A stretch of DNA of 44,276 bases from positions 1 to 44,276 of the forward strand of contig JABWBH010000041.1 of assembly GCA_013360585.1 (NCBI GenBank), written 5' to 3'. The stretch comes from Phycisphaerae bacterium (GTDB lineage: Bacteria > Planctomycetota > Phycisphaerae > UBA1845). The notes beneath the pieces were generated by a model. That model was not told where the DNA came from and ran no database searches. It saw only the letters and a program-made list of their open reading frames with translations. A program made the position numbers and the translations under genes. This document shows, piece after piece, positions 1,127 through 40,656 of the stretch (within the stretch, counting starts at the first letter, position 1; each line of letters opens with the position of its first letter).

Positions 1127-2617
1127 ATGAAGAGGTTCGTCGCCCTGGCACGGGTCAGCAGTCGGGAACAGGAACGGGAGGGCTTCTCGCTCGCGGTGCA
1201 GGAGGACGCCCTCCGGCGCTACGCCGCCTCCGCCGGCGGCGAGATTGTCCGGCTCTTCCGCATCGCCGAGACGGCGAGCAAGAGCGACGAGCGCAAGACT
1301 TTCCGCGAGCTTATCGCCTACGCCAAGAAGCACGCCGAGGAACTCGACGGGCTGCTCTTCTACAAGGTGGACCGCGCCGCGCGCAACCTGTTCGACTACG
1401 TGGAGCTGGAGCGGCTGGAGAGCGAGTACCACCTGCCGTTCATCTCCGTTTCGCAGCCGACGGAGAACAATCCCGCCGGCCGCATGATGCGGCGGACGCT
1501 GGCCAATATGGCGAGTTTCTACACCGAGCAGCAGTCGCTCGACGTGAAGGAGGGCCTCGCCCGCCGCGTCCAGGAGGGCTGGTTCGTCGGCAAGGCGCCC
1601 TACGGCTACAGGAACGTCCGCCGGGACGGCCGTTGCATCTCGGAGGTCGATCCGCCGGCGGCGGAGAACGTCAAGCGCATCTTCCACCTCTACGCATACG
1701 AGCCGCTGACGCTCGATGCCCTGCGGGACCGCCTGCACGCCGACGGCATGGTCTACCGGCCGGAAGCGCCGAAGTTCACCCGCAGCAAGCTGCACGCGAT
1801 GCTGACGGACCGCTCGTACATCGGGGAGATCCCGTTCAAGGGGCAGTGGTATCCCGGCAGGCAGCAGCCGCTCATCGACCGCGCCACCTGGGACCGCGTG
1901 CAAGCGCTGCTCGGCGGCCACGTCTACCACGCCCACCAGATGACCTACGCCGGCGACCGCATCGCCTGCGCCCACTGCGGCCGCGCCGTCACCGGCGAGC
2001 GCAAGACGAAGGAGACGAAGTCAGGGGAGCGGCACTATGTCTACTACCGGTGCAGCGGCTACACCGCGCCCGGGCATCCGCGCGTGCGGGTGAAGGAAGA
2101 GGAACTGGACCGCCAGGTGCTCGAACTCTTCGGCCGCATGAAGGTCGAGGACCCGGAGGTCCGCGACTGGTTCCGTCTGGTGCTGGCTTCGCAGACGCGG
2201 GATGCGCAGAGGGACGCCCGCGCGCAGAGGGAGGAACTGACGCGGCAGGCGTCGCTGCTCGTCGCCCAGCAGGACCGCCTCCTTAACCTGCGGCTGGCCG
2301 AAGACGTGGACCAGGAGACCTTCGCCCGCAAGCACACGGAACTCCGCGACCGGCTGGCGTCCATCAAGCTGCAACTGGACGTGCTGGACCGCTCGCACGA
2401 TGAGACGGCCGAACTGGCGGCGAAAGCGTTTGAACTCTCGCAAACCCTGCAAGAACAGTGGGTTACGGCCGATTACACCGCCAAGCGGCGACTGCTCGAA
2501 ATCGTCTGTTTGAACTGCCGGCTGGAGGGCGTAAACCTCGTTCCCACAATGAGAAAGCCCTTCGACGTGCTCGCCGAAGGGCTTGATCTCTCGAAAAGTC
2601 GGGGCGACAGGATTTGA
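1127..2617 (+). CDS. Large serine recombinase (site-specific integrase)
   Basis: A 496-residue protein starting at ATG 1127; the frame is open further upstream but would overlap the small gene before it. The N-terminal resolvase domain begins FVALARVSSREQE, with Ser11 the expected nucleophile, and contains KVDRAARN. The 'recombinase' domain follows (FVGKAPYGYRN to about residue 280), then a zinc ribbon (CAHCGR, then a later Cys in YRCSGY) and a long charged coiled coil (about 360-450). This is the architecture of large serine integrases, which use no branch migration and integrate at att sites. The last codons (RGDRI-stop) lie within the 3' end of the opposite-strand tRNA-Pro gene, which suggests integration at that tRNA and marks this as the end of an element extending left of the window. 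Confidence 0.92.
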   Translation: MKRFVALARVSSREQEREGFSLAVQEDALRRYAASAGGEIVRLFRIAETASKSDERKTFRELIAYAKKHAEELDGLLFYKVDRAARNLFDYVELERLESEYHLPFISVSQPTENNPAGRMMRRTLANMASFYTEQQSLDVKEGLARRVQEGWFVGKAPYGYRNVRRDGRCISEVDPPAAENVKRIFHLYAYEPLTLDALRDRLHADGMVYRPEAPKFTRSKLHAMLTDRSYIGEIPFKGQWYPGRQQPLIDRATWDRVQALLGGHVYHAHQMTYAGDRIACAHCGRAVTGERKTKETKSGERHYVYYRCSGYTAPGHPRVRVKEEELDRQVLELFGRMKVEDPEVRDWFRLVLASQTRDAQRDARAQREELTRQASLLVAQQDRLLNLRLAEDVDQETFARKHTELRDRLASIKLQLDVLDRSHDETAELAAKAFELSQTLQEQWVTADYTAKRRLLEIVCLNCRLEGVNLVPTMRKPFDVLAEGLDLSKSRGDRI

Positions 2618-2674
2618 ACCTGCGACCTCTGGACCCCCAGTCCAGCACTCTAAACCAGGCTGAGCTACGCCCCG
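2599..2674 (-). tRNA. tRNA-Pro (anticodon GGG)
   Basis: On the minus strand the sequence folds as a full cloverleaf. The acceptor stem CGGGGCG pairs with CGCCCCG, followed by discriminator A. The D arm is GCTC/GAGT. The anticodon arm CTGGA/TCCAG encloses loop CTGGGGG, giving anticodon GGG for proline. The T arm GCAGG/CCTGT has loop TTCAAAT. CCA is not encoded; the bases after the discriminator are CTTTT. Its last 19 bases overlap the 3' end of the serine recombinase gene on the other strand. Confidence 0.95.
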
Positions 2675-17559: not shown

Positions 17560-17780
17560 CGATGCTCCCCCGGCTCAACCCCCGCTTCAGGGAGGTCATG
17601 CCCTCCTCCGCCCATCCCGCCGATCTCTCAATGCCGTCTGCGGAAGCAGCCGATCAAAACGTCTTCAGCCCTCAAAGCGCGCCTCCGCTTCGTCATCCTC
17701 ACGCCCGCCGGACGCGTCGGGGGGAACGACCCTATCCGCTCCGCGTCTTCCCCGAACAACCCGACGTCCCGCCCCTACCG
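17560..17780. other. Gap between pilB-like and pilT genes
   Basis: Together with the heptad array that follows it, this gap of about 260 bases separates two genes on the same strand. I see no gene, no strong hairpin and no clear promoter in it. The part next to the upstream gene is filled by 7-bp repeats. Confidence 0.4.
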
Positions 17781-17820
17781 CATTCCGCATCCCGCACTCT
17801 GCATTCCGCATTCTGCATTC

Positions 17821-34955: not shown

Positions 34956-34992
34956 GGGTGGCATGCTCTCGCGGTACTCCGCGTGAGCATGC
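34956..34992. repeat. TACT-loop extragenic hairpin, copy 2
   Basis: Again begins GGGTGGCATG, but the arms differ: GCATGCTC pairs with GAGCATGC and CGCGG with CCGCG, around the same T-T mismatch and TACT loop. The arms of copies 2 and 3 differ yet each pairs perfectly, so changes on one side are matched on the other. Confidence 0.8.
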
Positions 34993-35036
34993 GAGTTCAT
35001 CCCACCAGATGAGCATGCGAGTTCATCCCACCAGAT
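34985..35036. repeat. Two tandem copies of a 26-bp unit
   Basis: The 26-base unit beginning GAGCATGCGAGTTCATCCCA occurs twice in direct tandem, followed by a truncated third start (GAGCATGCG). Each unit reuses the right arm of hairpin copy 2. There are no spacers, so this is a simple duplication and not a CRISPR array. Confidence 0.85.
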
Positions 35037-35049
35037 GAGCATGCGGGCC

Positions 35050-37134: not shown

Positions 37135-37710
37135 ATGCCCGTTTACGATCCGCCGCCCATAACCCGCATTCTCGAACTCGTTCAGACGGGGGACGAGTCC
37201 GCGCGCCGGGAGCTGTGGCGGCGCACCTATGACGAGATTCACGCCATCGCCGCCGCATTTATGCGCCGCGAAATTGCCGGACGCACGCTCCAGACCACTG
37301 TCGTCGTCCACGAGGCCTACCTTAAACTCTTCGGACACGCCTGCGCGGACTTCCGCAGCGCGGGACATTTCTTCTCCGCGGCCGCCAATGCGATGCGCCA
37401 GCTCCTCGTCGAACACGCACGGAAGAGAAGGGCGGCCAAGCGCGGCGGCGGGATCGGCACGGTTCCGCTCGACGGCGACGGCTTCGCCGCGGAGTTCGAC
37501 CGCGATCCGGAGTTGGAGCTGGCCGTCAACGAAGCCATGACGTTGCTCGAAAAAGAGCACCCGCGCGCGGCCGAGGTGGCCAAGCTGCGCTACTACACCG
37601 GGCTGACCGTGCGCCAAACGGCCGAGGCGCTCGCCGTCGGCGACCGCACCATCGAGGCCGACTGGCGGTTCGCGCGGGCGTGGCTGTATCAGCGGCTGGG
37701 AGGGAAGTGA
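37135..37710 (+). CDS. ECF-type sigma factor of the planctomycete/acidobacterial group
   Basis: A 191-residue protein; ATG 37135 has GGGAG ten bases upstream. It opens PPPITRILELVQTGDESARR (region 2 start), contains TTVVVHEAYLKLFGHACADF and AANAMRQLLVEHARKRRAAK, and ends with the region-4 helix-turn-helix KLRYYTGLTVRQTAEALAVG followed by DRTIEADWRFARAWLYQRL. This is the Sigma70_ECF (PF07638) pattern that commonly neighbours Ser/Thr kinases in Planctomycetota and Acidobacteriota. No anti-sigma factor is encoded nearby. The kinase gene starts 186 bases downstream, with the 56-bp palindrome between them, so they probably form one signalling unit. Confidence 0.92.
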   Translation: MPVYDPPPITRILELVQTGDESARRELWRRTYDEIHAIAAAFMRREIAGRTLQTTVVVHEAYLKLFGHACADFRSAGHFFSAAANAMRQLLVEHARKRRAAKRGGGIGTVPLDGDGFAAEFDRDPELELAVNEAMTLLEKEHPRAAEVAKLRYYTGLTVRQTAEALAVGDRTIEADWRFARAWLYQRLGGK

Positions 37711-37719
37711 GAGGACACT

Positions 37720-37775
37720 GAGCCGCGTGGCTTCAGCCCGCGCGATCGATCGCGCGGGCTGAAGCCACGCGGCTC
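37720..37775. repeat. Perfect 56-bp palindrome between sigma factor and kinase
   Basis: The two 28-base arms (starting GAGCCGCGTGGCTTCAGCCC, centre GATC-GATC) are exact reverse complements. It starts ten bases after the sigma factor stop. Half-copies of the arm occur at 6861-6885 and 38740-38765, so this is a dispersed repeat present in both full and half form. Such a symmetric sequence could form a strong RNA hairpin or a DNA cruciform. Confidence 0.92.
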
Positions 37776-37896: not shown

Positions 37897-40656
37897 ATGA
37901 CCGAACCCACATCCAGACAAGACCGCCTGCACGAGCTGTTCACCGCCGCGCTGCACCTGCCCTCAGCGCAACAGGAACCGTACCTGCTCCGCTCCTGCCC
38001 GGACGACCCCGCGCTCGTCCGTGAGGTTCTCGCTCTCCTGCACGCCGCCGACGCTGCGCCGGACGATTTCCTCACCCCGCCGGACCCGCCTTCCTTCCTG
38101 TCGAAAGCGACGCCGCATCCGCCCGCGCCCTACGACCCGGCCAAGGACACGCTGCCGGGCCGCCGCCTCAAAGGCCGGTACACGATTCAGCATCGCCTCG
38201 GCGAGGGCGGCATGTCCGTCGTGTACGAAGGCGCGCAGGATCACCCGCGCCGCCGAGTGGCCATCAAGATCTTGCGCCCGCAGTTCGTCTCGCCGAAGGT
38301 GCTGCGCCGCTTCCGCGACGAGCCGGAAATCCTCGCCCAGCTCAACCACCCGCACATCGTCCGCGTCTTCGAGGCTGACGTGGAGGACTTCGGCGCCGGC
38401 GACGGTCCGCAGCCGTACTTCGTGATGGAATACGTGGACGGCATCCCGCTGACGCAGTACGCCCACGACCGCCGCCTGCCGCTGCGCCAGCGCCTCGAGC
38501 TTTTCGCCATCGCCTGCGACGCCGTGCACGAGGCCCACCAGCGCGGCATCATCCACCGCGATCTGAAGCCGGGGAACATCCTCGTGACCGCCGAGGGACA
38601 GCCCAAGCTGCTCGACTTCGGCGTCGCCAAGATTCTCGCCACCAGCGGTCTGGCCATCGAGCACACGCTCACCGGCGAGCTTCAACTCATCGGCACGCTG
38701 CAATACATGAGCCCGGAGCAATGCGACGTGGGTCTAAGCGAGCCGCAGGCTTCAGCCCGCGCGAATTCACTCTCCCCGGCAGAGCCGCCCGTGTCAGGAA
38801 TCGGTCCGATGGGTGGTTCGCCAAACGCGCCGGGTACTTCGTCGCTCTGCGACGAAAGCCCAGCGCAGAGCGTCGAAAACCCCAAAGTCTCGTCACGGAG
38901 TGACGAACTACCTGCCCTGAACCCTCAACCCCTGAACCCTGAACCCCGAACCCTGAACCCTCAGCCCCAAACCCCGATTCCCGATCCCCGACCCCCGAGT
39001 CTGGACACCCGCTCCGACGTCTACGCCCTCGGCGTCCTCCTCTACGAACTGGTCACCGAGCGCCTGCCCTACGACGTCTCGAACATGACCATCGTCTCGG
39101 CCGCCCGCACCATCTGCGAAGCCGCGCCCACCCCCCCGTCGCACTTCGACCGCCGCCTGCGCGGCGACCTCGACGCCATCATCCTCAAAGCCCTCGAAAA
39201 AAACCGCGCCCACCGCTACGCCTCCGCCGCCCACCTCGAAGACGACGTGCGAAGATACCTGTCGGGCGAACCGACGACGGCGAGACCGCCCACGTGGCGC
39301 ACGCGCACCGTGCGATGGATGCGAAAGCATCCAAAGCTTGCGACCGCCGCGATCGCGTTCTCTGCCGGGGTCTTGGCGTGGATACCCGCGATGTTGGCTT
39401 GGGAGAGGGGGTTCCGACGGGGAATGCAAGCCGTTCCGTGGGGGTTCAAAAAAGCGTTCAACGACTCCTCCGTGGAGTTGATGAGTTTCGATGGAAGAAC
39501 GCTTGCGGGCTTTGCTGCTGGTAATGGCGGGAAGGTTCGTGTTGCTGACGTGCTCGAATCCTCCCGAAGCGGCGGGCGTGACCTGAGGGTCGTCGTTGGG
39601 TTACAAAGCCAACCTTTAACCAGAATTCCCTGCGCATTGACGATGTACCGGTGGAACCAGCCGAAGCAGGCACTTGAACCCGTTTGGGAACTGCATCAAC
39701 CGGACCCCGGACCGCTCCCCGACCCGCATGATAGGAAGTTCAGCCCTGCAGCCTTCCGGTTCGCCAATGGCTGCATAGCCGATATCTTCGACAACAAGGA
39801 GAGCAAGGGCGACGAGATCGTGATCGTCTTTCAGGGCGGGGGGTTCACGCAATCGGTCCTTCAAATCCACGATCTTGACGGCCGGTTGCTTTACCGAATC
39901 TGGGCCGATGCCCAATTCGAGGAAATCATCTGGCAACCCGACTCCCGGCTGCTGATCTGTTTCGGCGGCGACGGCTCGGCCTTTCGACGCGCTCGCCAGG
40001 GGATGCCGGAGGACGAGCGCGCCGAGTATCGGCACGTCAAGGTCGTCTTCGCCTTTCGCCCCGAATTCGACAAGCTTTACGACACGTTTCTGTGCCTAGA
40101 GCCTGAGCCGATCCCGGGCACGATTGCCCCCGAATGGTGCCGCATGATCGGCCCTAGGAATCTGGTGGACGCCTGTTTTGATCATGCGCTCCTTGACCCG
40201 ATCGAGGGAGGCGGGTTCCGGCTGCAAGTGATTGGAAGGGGTGAGGCGGAGAGCATGGGTTCGTTGTCGATCGAATTTGGCCCAGACGGATCGCTGACAA
40301 AGCGCTGTCCAGATTCCGACAATGTCAAGTCCGCCCTGGTCCACGCCGCGCCCGAGAGCATCCTGTATCAGTTTGCGCACAGAATCAACCTCCTGCGCCA
40401 CCCCCCGATCCGCGATGAGTGGGTTCCAGCCAAGGGAAAAGGGGACGCCGCCGAGCGCCTCTACTACCTCCGCGACTGCGAAGCTGACCCCGCCGGCGGG
40501 CCTCCGCGTACCCACTCGACCGAAACCTGCCCGCTCAACGCATACAGCGTCCACGGCTCCCCGTACCGCTGGGCGCGGCTGTTGAGGGATGGCAAAGGAA
40601 CCTCGACCGGACGCTCCCAGCCGCCTTCGCTGGATACCCCATCTTCCCCGCCTTGA
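37897..40656 (+). CDS. Transmembrane Ser/Thr protein kinase with repeat-derived insertion
   Basis: From ATG 37897 this is a 919-residue PknB-type kinase; 33 more codons are open upstream (ATG 37798) and no ribosome site settles the start. The N-terminal 85 residues are a helical region seen in other sigma-linked kinases. Kinase motifs: Gly-loop GEGGMSVVYEG (from 102), Lys124 in VAIKIL, HRDLKPGN (Asp222), DFGVAK (Asp240) and GTLQYMSPEQ (to 275). A 90-residue, Pro-rich insertion (about 279-368) separates this from DTRSDVYALGVLLYELV. A membrane span (about 482-502) precedes a C-terminal region of about 415 residues of unknown type, presumably outside the membrane as a sensor. Probably signals with the sigma factor just upstream. 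Confidence 0.92.
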   Translation: MTEPTSRQDRLHELFTAALHLPSAQQEPYLLRSCPDDPALVREVLALLHAADAAPDDFLTPPDPPSFLSKATPHPPAPYDPAKDTLPGRRLKGRYTIQHRLGEGGMSVVYEGAQDHPRRRVAIKILRPQFVSPKVLRRFRDEPEILAQLNHPHIVRVFEADVEDFGAGDGPQPYFVMEYVDGIPLTQYAHDRRLPLRQRLELFAIACDAVHEAHQRGIIHRDLKPGNILVTAEGQPKLLDFGVAKILATSGLAIEHTLTGELQLIGTLQYMSPEQCDVGLSEPQASARANSLSPAEPPVSGIGPMGGSPNAPGTSSLCDESPAQSVENPKVSSRSDELPALNPQPLNPEPRTLNPQPQTPIPDPRPPSLDTRSDVYALGVLLYELVTERLPYDVSNMTIVSAARTICEAAPTPPSHFDRRLRGDLDAIILKALEKNRAHRYASAAHLEDDVRRYLSGEPTTARPPTWRTRTVRWMRKHPKLATAAIAFSAGVLAWIPAMLAWERGFRRGMQAVPWGFKKAFNDSSVELMSFDGRTLAGFAAGNGGKVRVADVLESSRSGGRDLRVVVGLQSQPLTRIPCALTMYRWNQPKQALEPVWELHQPDPGPLPDPHDRKFSPAAFRFANGCIADIFDNKESKGDEIVIVFQGGGFTQSVLQIHDLDGRLLYRIWADAQFEEIIWQPDSRLLICFGGDGSAFRRARQGMPEDERAEYRHVKVVFAFRPEFDKLYDTFLCLEPEPIPGTIAPEWCRMIGPRNLVDACFDHALLDPIEGGGFRLQVIGRGEAESMGSLSIEFGPDGSLTKRCPDSDNVKSALVHAAPESILYQFAHRINLLRHPPIRDEWVPAKGKGDAAERLYYLRDCEADPAGGPPRTHSTETCPLNAYSVHGSPYRWARLLRDGKGTSTGRSQPPSLDTPSSPP
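38740..38765. repeat. Half-copy of the GAGCCGC palindromic repeat inside the kinase gene
   Basis: The bases from GAGCCGCAGGC to CCGCGCGAA are nearly the same as the half-copy at 6861-6885 and match one arm of the 56-bp palindrome at 37720. Here they are translated as EPQASARAN. Confidence 0.85.
38911..39000. repeat. Translated degenerate 7-bp repeat array in the kinase gene
   Basis: About twelve units around CCCTGAA/CCCCGAA (for example TGAACCC, TCAACCC, CTGAACCC, GATTCCC, GATCCCC, GACCCCC) run to the point where kinase homology resumes. Three 7-base units equal seven codons, so the protein shows a seven-residue period (LNPQP, LNPEPRT, LNPQPQT). The best example of the heptad family in a coding region. 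Confidence 0.85.

Follow-up and report, generated by a model that had tools for sequence, protein, structure and literature searches.

A repeat-built insert in a loop of a planctomycete PknB-type kinase, and related palindromes and transposases in frame within core enzymes

The window analysed here is one whole contig of 44,276 nucleotides (JABWBH010000041.1) from the genome of a Phycisphaerae bacterium (GCA_013360585.1; 4.24 Mb in 84 contigs, 97.33% complete), and it encodes a Hanks/PknB-type Ser/Thr kinase whose catalytic domain is interrupted by an insert of 88 residues. This insert, in a kinase that is otherwise intact, is probably repetitive DNA translated as part of a permissive surface loop, and one instance of a wider process by which palindromes linked to transposases, hairpins and short arrays are captured in the loops of proteins. 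One loop filled with different repeats in two species offers a testable case of non-coding repeats turning into protein sequence.

The insert in the kinase and its repeat parts

Alignment of the kinase with PknB of Mycobacterium tuberculosis (3f69) by phmmer pairs query residues 24–210 with chain residues 9–191 and query residues 299–396 with chain residues 192–287; because the query resumes at 299 where the chain continues from 191 to 192, 88 kinase residues are left without a counterpart in PknB. They lie between the SPEQ motif of helix alphaEF and the DTRSDVY motif of helix alphaF. A previous sequence-only reading of this DNA had described the kinase domain as split at this point by a mosaic of repeats, and both the alignment gap and the repeat parts, all of which were located (Table 1), agree with that description; its estimate of about 90 residues was right as to a large insert, the exact size being 88. 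The Pfam Pkinase match ends at kinase residue 308, and a second piece, starting at position 39004, scores 22 bits and stays below threshold. The core motifs and the fold nevertheless place the protein among the PknB/Hanks-type kinases: HRD, DFG and SPEQ are all present, and the nearest fold is that of 3f69 (TM-score 0.84, normalized by target length). The insert of 264 nt is a multiple of three and, as had been claimed, is in frame and free of stops, like the open reading frame (ORF) as a whole, translation of which may in fact begin with the ATG at position 37897. Among the plus-strand frames of the insert the one in use is open and the other two contain 4 and 2 stops, while one minus-strand frame is open as well, a test that is biased since open genes alone were considered. 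AlphaFold2 (44 sequences) models the insert as a disordered loop on a confident kinase core, with block means of the predicted local distance difference test (pLDDT) of 36–65 in the insert, most of the core exceeding 90; the prediction is thus in line with the disorder that had been anticipated.

Two small hairpins, a 7-bp array and half of a palindrome had been described in the insert and were found there, together with a half hairpin. The 21-mer of the half palindrome has 2 matches in the window at up to 3 mismatches (0.06 expected), and the 17-mer of the 7-bp array has 5 overlapping matches (0.13 expected). The gene order is that of an extracytoplasmic function (ECF) sigma factor followed by a perfect 56-bp palindrome and then by the kinase, and the half palindrome had been taken for a half copy of this 56-bp element. 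It is indeed a closely related half, but not an exact one, as it differs by one base change and a one-base gap, and the halves of the 56-bp palindrome fit the pattern of the family described below (REP-A) only at 4 mismatches.

Table 1. Positions of the kinase, its insert and associated features in the window, and loci of transposases nested in host genes of the own genome and of relatives
Feature	Position	Strand	Evidence
88-residue insert, loop between SPEQ and DTRSDVY; ORF aa 310–397	38725..38988	+	PknB alignment gap, low pLDDT, third-position GC
Half palindrome GAGCCGCAGGCTTCAGCCCGCGCGAATTC, REP-A family, translated EPQASARAN	38740..38768	+	genome-wide matches
Hairpin, CTCTG loop	38838..38856	+	hairpin search
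Half hairpin, inverted relative to the preceding hairpin	38864..38877	+	inverted repeat I1
Hairpin, CTCCG loop	38889..38907	-	hairpin search
7-bp array, CCCTGAA type, translated LNPQPLNPEPRTLNPQPQTPIPDPR	38915..38998	+	Tandem Repeats Finder, period 7, 11.9 copies, 76% matches
Ser/Thr kinase gene of the Hanks/PknB type, called with 952 aa	37798..40656	+	ORF; Pfam Pkinase 132 bits; PknB alignment
Perfect palindrome (56 bp) separating the sigma factor and kinase genes, composed of two REP-A-type halves in inverted orientation	37720..37775	.	equals its own reverse complement
ECF sigma factor gene, adjoining the kinase gene	37135..37710	+	Pfam Sigma70_ECF 159.8 bits
Nested transposase loci	L383, L360, L361, L389, L372, L362-L367, L374, L377, L378, L380-L382		no own stop before host sequence resumes

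Loops of this size are rare among the kinases parsed. In 128 distinct parses drawn from the fetched loci (13 checked loci gave no parse) the loop has 5–9 residues in 110 cases and 11–29 in 15, the latter mostly parsing errors in which the pattern caught an earlier "PE"; only three loops exceed 30 residues, namely those of this kinase (94 by this count), of its ortholog in the same-genus relative G003 (174) and of a kinase in G031 (54). A tree calculated from 44 kinase domains with the insert removed joins our kinase and that of G003 in a clade with 100/100 support. The next supported clade (99/99) has eight further rows, all without insert, and the distribution of the insert on the tree requires two changes, with G031 lying apart. 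The loop of G003 occupies the same site, but its DNA consists of 27- and 81-bp tandem units of hairpins with CTCCG loops, besides which a weak piece of palindrome can be discerned by eye, as can a short tail with 7-bp spacing. The two loops, also compared by eye, are built from different repeats and, short pieces excepted, look unrelated in sequence. Conservation of the insertion among relatives would have spoken against the capture of repeats; instead, the same-genus ortholog carries other repeats at the same site. In another genome (G001) the contig of the ortholog (L063, G001:C64:16693-19197) ends within the kinase, approximately 45 residues past the insert site.

The palindrome family in the genome and inside other genes

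REP-A, as we call here the family to which the half palindrome of the kinase belongs, has 115 matches in the genome at up to 3 mismatches, compared to 4 for a reversed-pattern control. It has the character of a repetitive extragenic palindrome (REP), i.e. a short palindrome in many copies and mainly intergenic: 25 of the 29 loci in a first search lay between genes, as did 24 of 31 matches at up to 4 mismatches in an 844-kb sample of this genome (4 matches in a shuffled copy) and 18 of 20 at up to 2 mismatches (1 match in a Markov copy). These background counts refer to the sample rather than to the whole genome, with genes called by a home-made script. These longer patterns were adopted because a 14-mer with 2 mismatches allowed gave largely chance matches: 88 in the own sample, including 52 in called genes, vs 24 in a shuffled copy.

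A check for such repeats inside further genes, suggested by the sequence-only reading, gave a positive result. Among 91 distinct REP-A copies (up to 2 mismatches) 19 lie in called genes, and nine of these are internal to recognised genes, where they occupy the kinase and, in frame, eight places in seven other genes: MetH, valyl-tRNA synthetase (ValRS, two sites), a glycoside hydrolase family 20 (GH20) enzyme, ClpB, PurH, HutU and aldehyde dehydrogenase. MetH, ValRS, PurH, HutU and aldehyde dehydrogenase score above the curated NCBIfam cut-offs and ClpB, a partial sequence, below; the GH20 enzyme was named by Pfam. In ValRS, PurH and HutU there are segments that are extra with respect to solved structures, and 7-bp arrays are also found in frame (by eye). 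The other ten copies in called genes comprise five discounted because they lie at gene ends (L276, L308, L292, L321 621-1049 and L020) and five regarded as doubtful (L294, L302, L309, L317 and L281 at residue 270, with surroundings conserved in relatives). Since the palindrome is open in five of its six frames, four of which these host genes use, the spreading unit is the DNA and not a peptide.

A scan for arrays of period 5–12 found few: those of period 7 number three in the own sample (this kinase and two intergenic) and four in G003, all intergenic. Within the window, a 7-bp array (CCGCATT) lies between called genes at 17778-17820, and a perfect 26-bp repeat is present in 2.4 copies at 34984-35045. 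Hairpins with CTCCG or CTCTG loops, such as L242 17108-17394, L246 2061-2133 and those of the kinase insert, keep the loop fixed, while their stems vary between copies yet remain complementary; in the G003 sample this loop is the commonest among hairpins with a 5-nt loop (15 of 85), and three such hairpins lie in a gene for methionyl-tRNA synthetase. A palindrome-bearing element of approximately 90 bp, near-identical in many copies, occurs in most of the loci L012-L029 (e.g. L016 around 1501) and is located between genes or at gene ends according to our own gene caller. ValRS (L318 1753-5601) has 1,282 residues vs 862 in the 1gax chain, and its regions 579-705, 833-909 and 1074-1128 are extra with respect to 1gax and contain no recognised repeat; these stretches may represent a lineage-specific domain.

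Transposases in frame within core enzymes

A link between these palindromes and transposition comes from ValRS. At its third insert site three of 29 relatives (G003, G022 and G036) carry a whole Y1/HUH transposase in frame with the same palindromes on both sides, whereas our genome has there a REP-A pair around an 18-bp tandem repeat; some rows of this alignment fall short of the site. In alanyl-tRNA synthetase (AlaRS) of our own genome, Pfam identifies an in-frame Y1 transposase (L383, G000:C77:149351-149905), which is flanked by palindromes of a second family, REP-B, and at a further AlaRS site our genome has a REP-B pair alone and five relatives have the transposase. Searches with the G003 transposase found matches in 29 of 60 relatives, and 27 of the 57 matches fall in open frames of at least 380 aa. 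Of these 27, 22 loci were examined, and in 17 a host domain was found, on both sides of the transposase in 16 and on one side in L377, which is cut by the contig end. The hosts are AlaRS (7), ValRS (4), PurH (4), leucyl-tRNA synthetase (LeuRS; 1) and an MmeI-like methylase (1). The other five loci are not clearly nested: L368, L370, L375 and L384 lack a host domain, and L369 (MutS) has one on one side only. With the own copy as query (E-value 1e-10) 34 of 294 genomes of the phylum match, and five of the 76 matches are in frames of at least 380 aa, namely own AlaRS, a ValRS, an Eco57I-type methylase, and L391 and L412, which look spurious by eye; the contrast between relatives and phylum is rough, as queries and thresholds differ. 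The methylase (L399, in G350) combines the in-frame Y1 transposase with long runs of SRDREGAD and ARLVDP repeats.

Matching palindromes lie on both sides of 16 of the 17 nested transposases. REP-A flanks eight (ValRS 3, PurH 4, LeuRS 1), REP-B another eight (AlaRS 7, ValRS 1), and the copy in the MmeI-like gene has neither; the two families are never mixed beside one transposase, and in 11 of the 17 cases neither occurs in the remainder of the host. The test allowed up to 4 mismatches and used two overlapping REP-A patterns, so that matches do not equal copies. In a quick tree of the transposases the REP-A-flanked copies separate from those flanked by REP-B, so that each palindrome family goes with a transposase type of its own. 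The HUH motif and the YV motif with its tyrosine are invariant in the alignment of all 17 nested copies, and PF01797 scores exceed 23 bits in the scanned proteins except L380 (21.5) and L384 (21.4); together these features assign the guests to the Y1/HUH transposases, and their profile matches solved transposases, e.g. that of ISHp608. In the least diverged nested pair, from PurH, the nonsynonymous divergence (dN) is 0.12 and the synonymous divergence (dS) 0.61, which together with the intact motifs points to selection keeping the transposase domain. An AlphaFold2 model of AlaRS with its guest (six sequences) had a mean pLDDT of 44 and was not used.

The palindromes thus flank Y1/HUH transposases as in the association of REPs with REP-associated tyrosine transposases (RAYT), in the case of REP-A in relatives only. 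With the NCBIfam model of RAYT (REP_Tyr_transpos) six of seven proteins scored 20.6–42.4 bits, below the curated cut-off of 80, and the seventh, a free-standing gene on contig C57, gave no match; the nested transposases are also below the curated cut-off for IS200/IS605 transposases, and for these reasons we call them RAYT-like only.

Since REP-A flanks Y1/HUH transposases in relatives, the half palindrome of the kinase most likely came, or stayed behind, by transposition, a step that for this gene we infer by analogy with the other loci. Palindromes would be moved as single strands by Y1/HUH transposases, or would be left over once the transposase part is lost; hairpins and the 7-bp array might be added or expanded in the loop by slippage, recombination or another mover. 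The survivors would be the in-frame, stop-free outcomes in tolerant loops, which would then be translated, presumably with a neutral rather than a useful role, and because only such outcomes survive, the content of a loop could change while the kinase core is kept. Tentatively, and as a view that we find quite possible though somewhat short of probable, Y1/HUH transposases in this order of planctomycetes may lead an intein-like life without splicing, as stop-less translated guests in loops of ValRS, AlaRS, LeuRS and PurH, with an own palindrome family for each type at both ends, while these palindromes, singly or paired and together with hairpins and minisatellites, fill many other protein loops including that of the kinase, so that mobile DNA would be a continuing source of protein sequence. 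The enzymes that host in-frame transposases are generally essential, and such guests would show how a mobile element can become hard to lose without splicing. Large repeat-derived inserts in planctomycete core proteins also call for caution, as they can mislead gene calling and alignment.

Alternative explanations and relation to known systems

Several observations weigh against repeat capture by transposition. No REP-A-type transposase is found among the Y1 matches of our own genome, which are two: an IS200-like gene that has no such palindrome next to it, and the B-type copy nested in AlaRS. The transposases score below the curated RAYT cut-off, REP-B at 3 mismatches exceeds chance only weakly in the sample (10 matches vs 4 in the Markov control), and no enzyme was found linked to the hairpin and 7-bp pieces. 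Empty sites were compared for the kinase, ValRS and AlaRS only, and only between species, a comparison that does not distinguish insertion from recombination. The assemblies are fragmented.

The loop could alternatively be a functional regulatory or docking segment under selection, in which the repeat-like character of the DNA is incidental. Two species of the genus have a long loop at the same site, and the composition of the insert, rich in proline (22%) and serine (15%), would suit phosphorylation or docking. We consider this unlikely, because the two loops differ in sequence and repeats, the third-position GC of the insert (0.625) is unlike that of the rest of the gene (0.877 and 0.845 in the flanks), and the same repeats recur in many unrelated enzymes. 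That the kinase gene is a decaying pseudogene gathering non-coding repeats would fit the position of the insert inside the kinase domain and the mostly intergenic location of the repeats elsewhere; however, the frame of 952 aa has no stop and retains its catalytic motifs, and inserts of the same kind are found in core enzymes such as ValRS, so that decay appears quite improbable. Translational bypassing of hairpin-containing inserts occurs in other systems, and the insert might accordingly be skipped, or be removed after transcription as an intron or intein. We regard this as very unlikely: Rfam at gathering score, applied to seven sources (kinase, ValRS, AlaRS and PurH loci), found only a tRNA (window 2599-2674) and no catalytic RNA of a group I or II intron or IStron, no intein splicing domain is among the Pfam matches at E-value 0.001, and the inserts keep the frame without stops, which would be unneeded if they were removed, although only copies in open genes were examined. 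Mis-assembly of repeats into the gene is hardly credible, for although the assembly is split into 84 contigs and in G001 the ortholog's contig breaks off inside the gene, as repeats often cause, both junctions are in frame, the separate assembly of G003, which agrees with JAJVHU010000011.1 without difference over 3,966 bases, also has a loop at this site, and the pattern recurs in other genes and genomes. The capture of repeats into a permissive loop, proposed from the sequence alone, therefore remains our preferred explanation, with the homologs, the structure model and the other genes in its support.

Among known systems, inteins and homing endonucleases are mobile proteins that lie in frame in conserved genes. 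The nested transposases resemble inteins in this respect, but no intein family matches them in Pfam and the guest appears to remain in the protein. REPINs are inverted palindrome pairs, and a RAYT is a single-domain Y1/HUH transposase adjoined by matching palindromes; both features recur here, with the difference that the transposases tested score below the cut-off of the RAYT model and that 17 nested transposases are fused into a host enzyme. Rickettsia palindromic elements are palindromic repeats found in frame in many unrelated protein genes, as REP-A is here. They belong to another lineage, and the inserts described here differ in stacking several kinds of repeat and in sometimes including a transposase. 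In the titles and opening parts of abstracts of open papers we found no report of in-frame transposases in synthetases or other essential genes, or of such repeats in planctomycetes. The part of PMC3733652 considered here describes REPs of the GTAG and CGTC superfamilies, short palindromes that are mostly intergenic, with some inside genes including those for tRNA synthetases; in Thauera and R. conorii, clusters of them encode 43 to 82 residues. Intragenic REPs are most abundant in O. terrae (Verrucomicrobia) and R. conorii, and RAYTs are proposed as the movers. On that partial account the principle of intragenic REPs is already known, and these REPs and the Rickettsia elements are a precedent for the capture of repeats in proteins. 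REP-A and REP-B share with the GTAG and CGTC REPs the short palindrome, the mainly intergenic location and the occasional presence in genes, synthetases included, though no GTAG or CGTC end tag was seen on the copies inspected by eye. As far as the portion of PMC3733652 considered allows comparison, the planctomycete system differs in the mixture of palindromes with both hairpins and 7-bp arrays, and in the whole transposases that lie in frame in their hosts.

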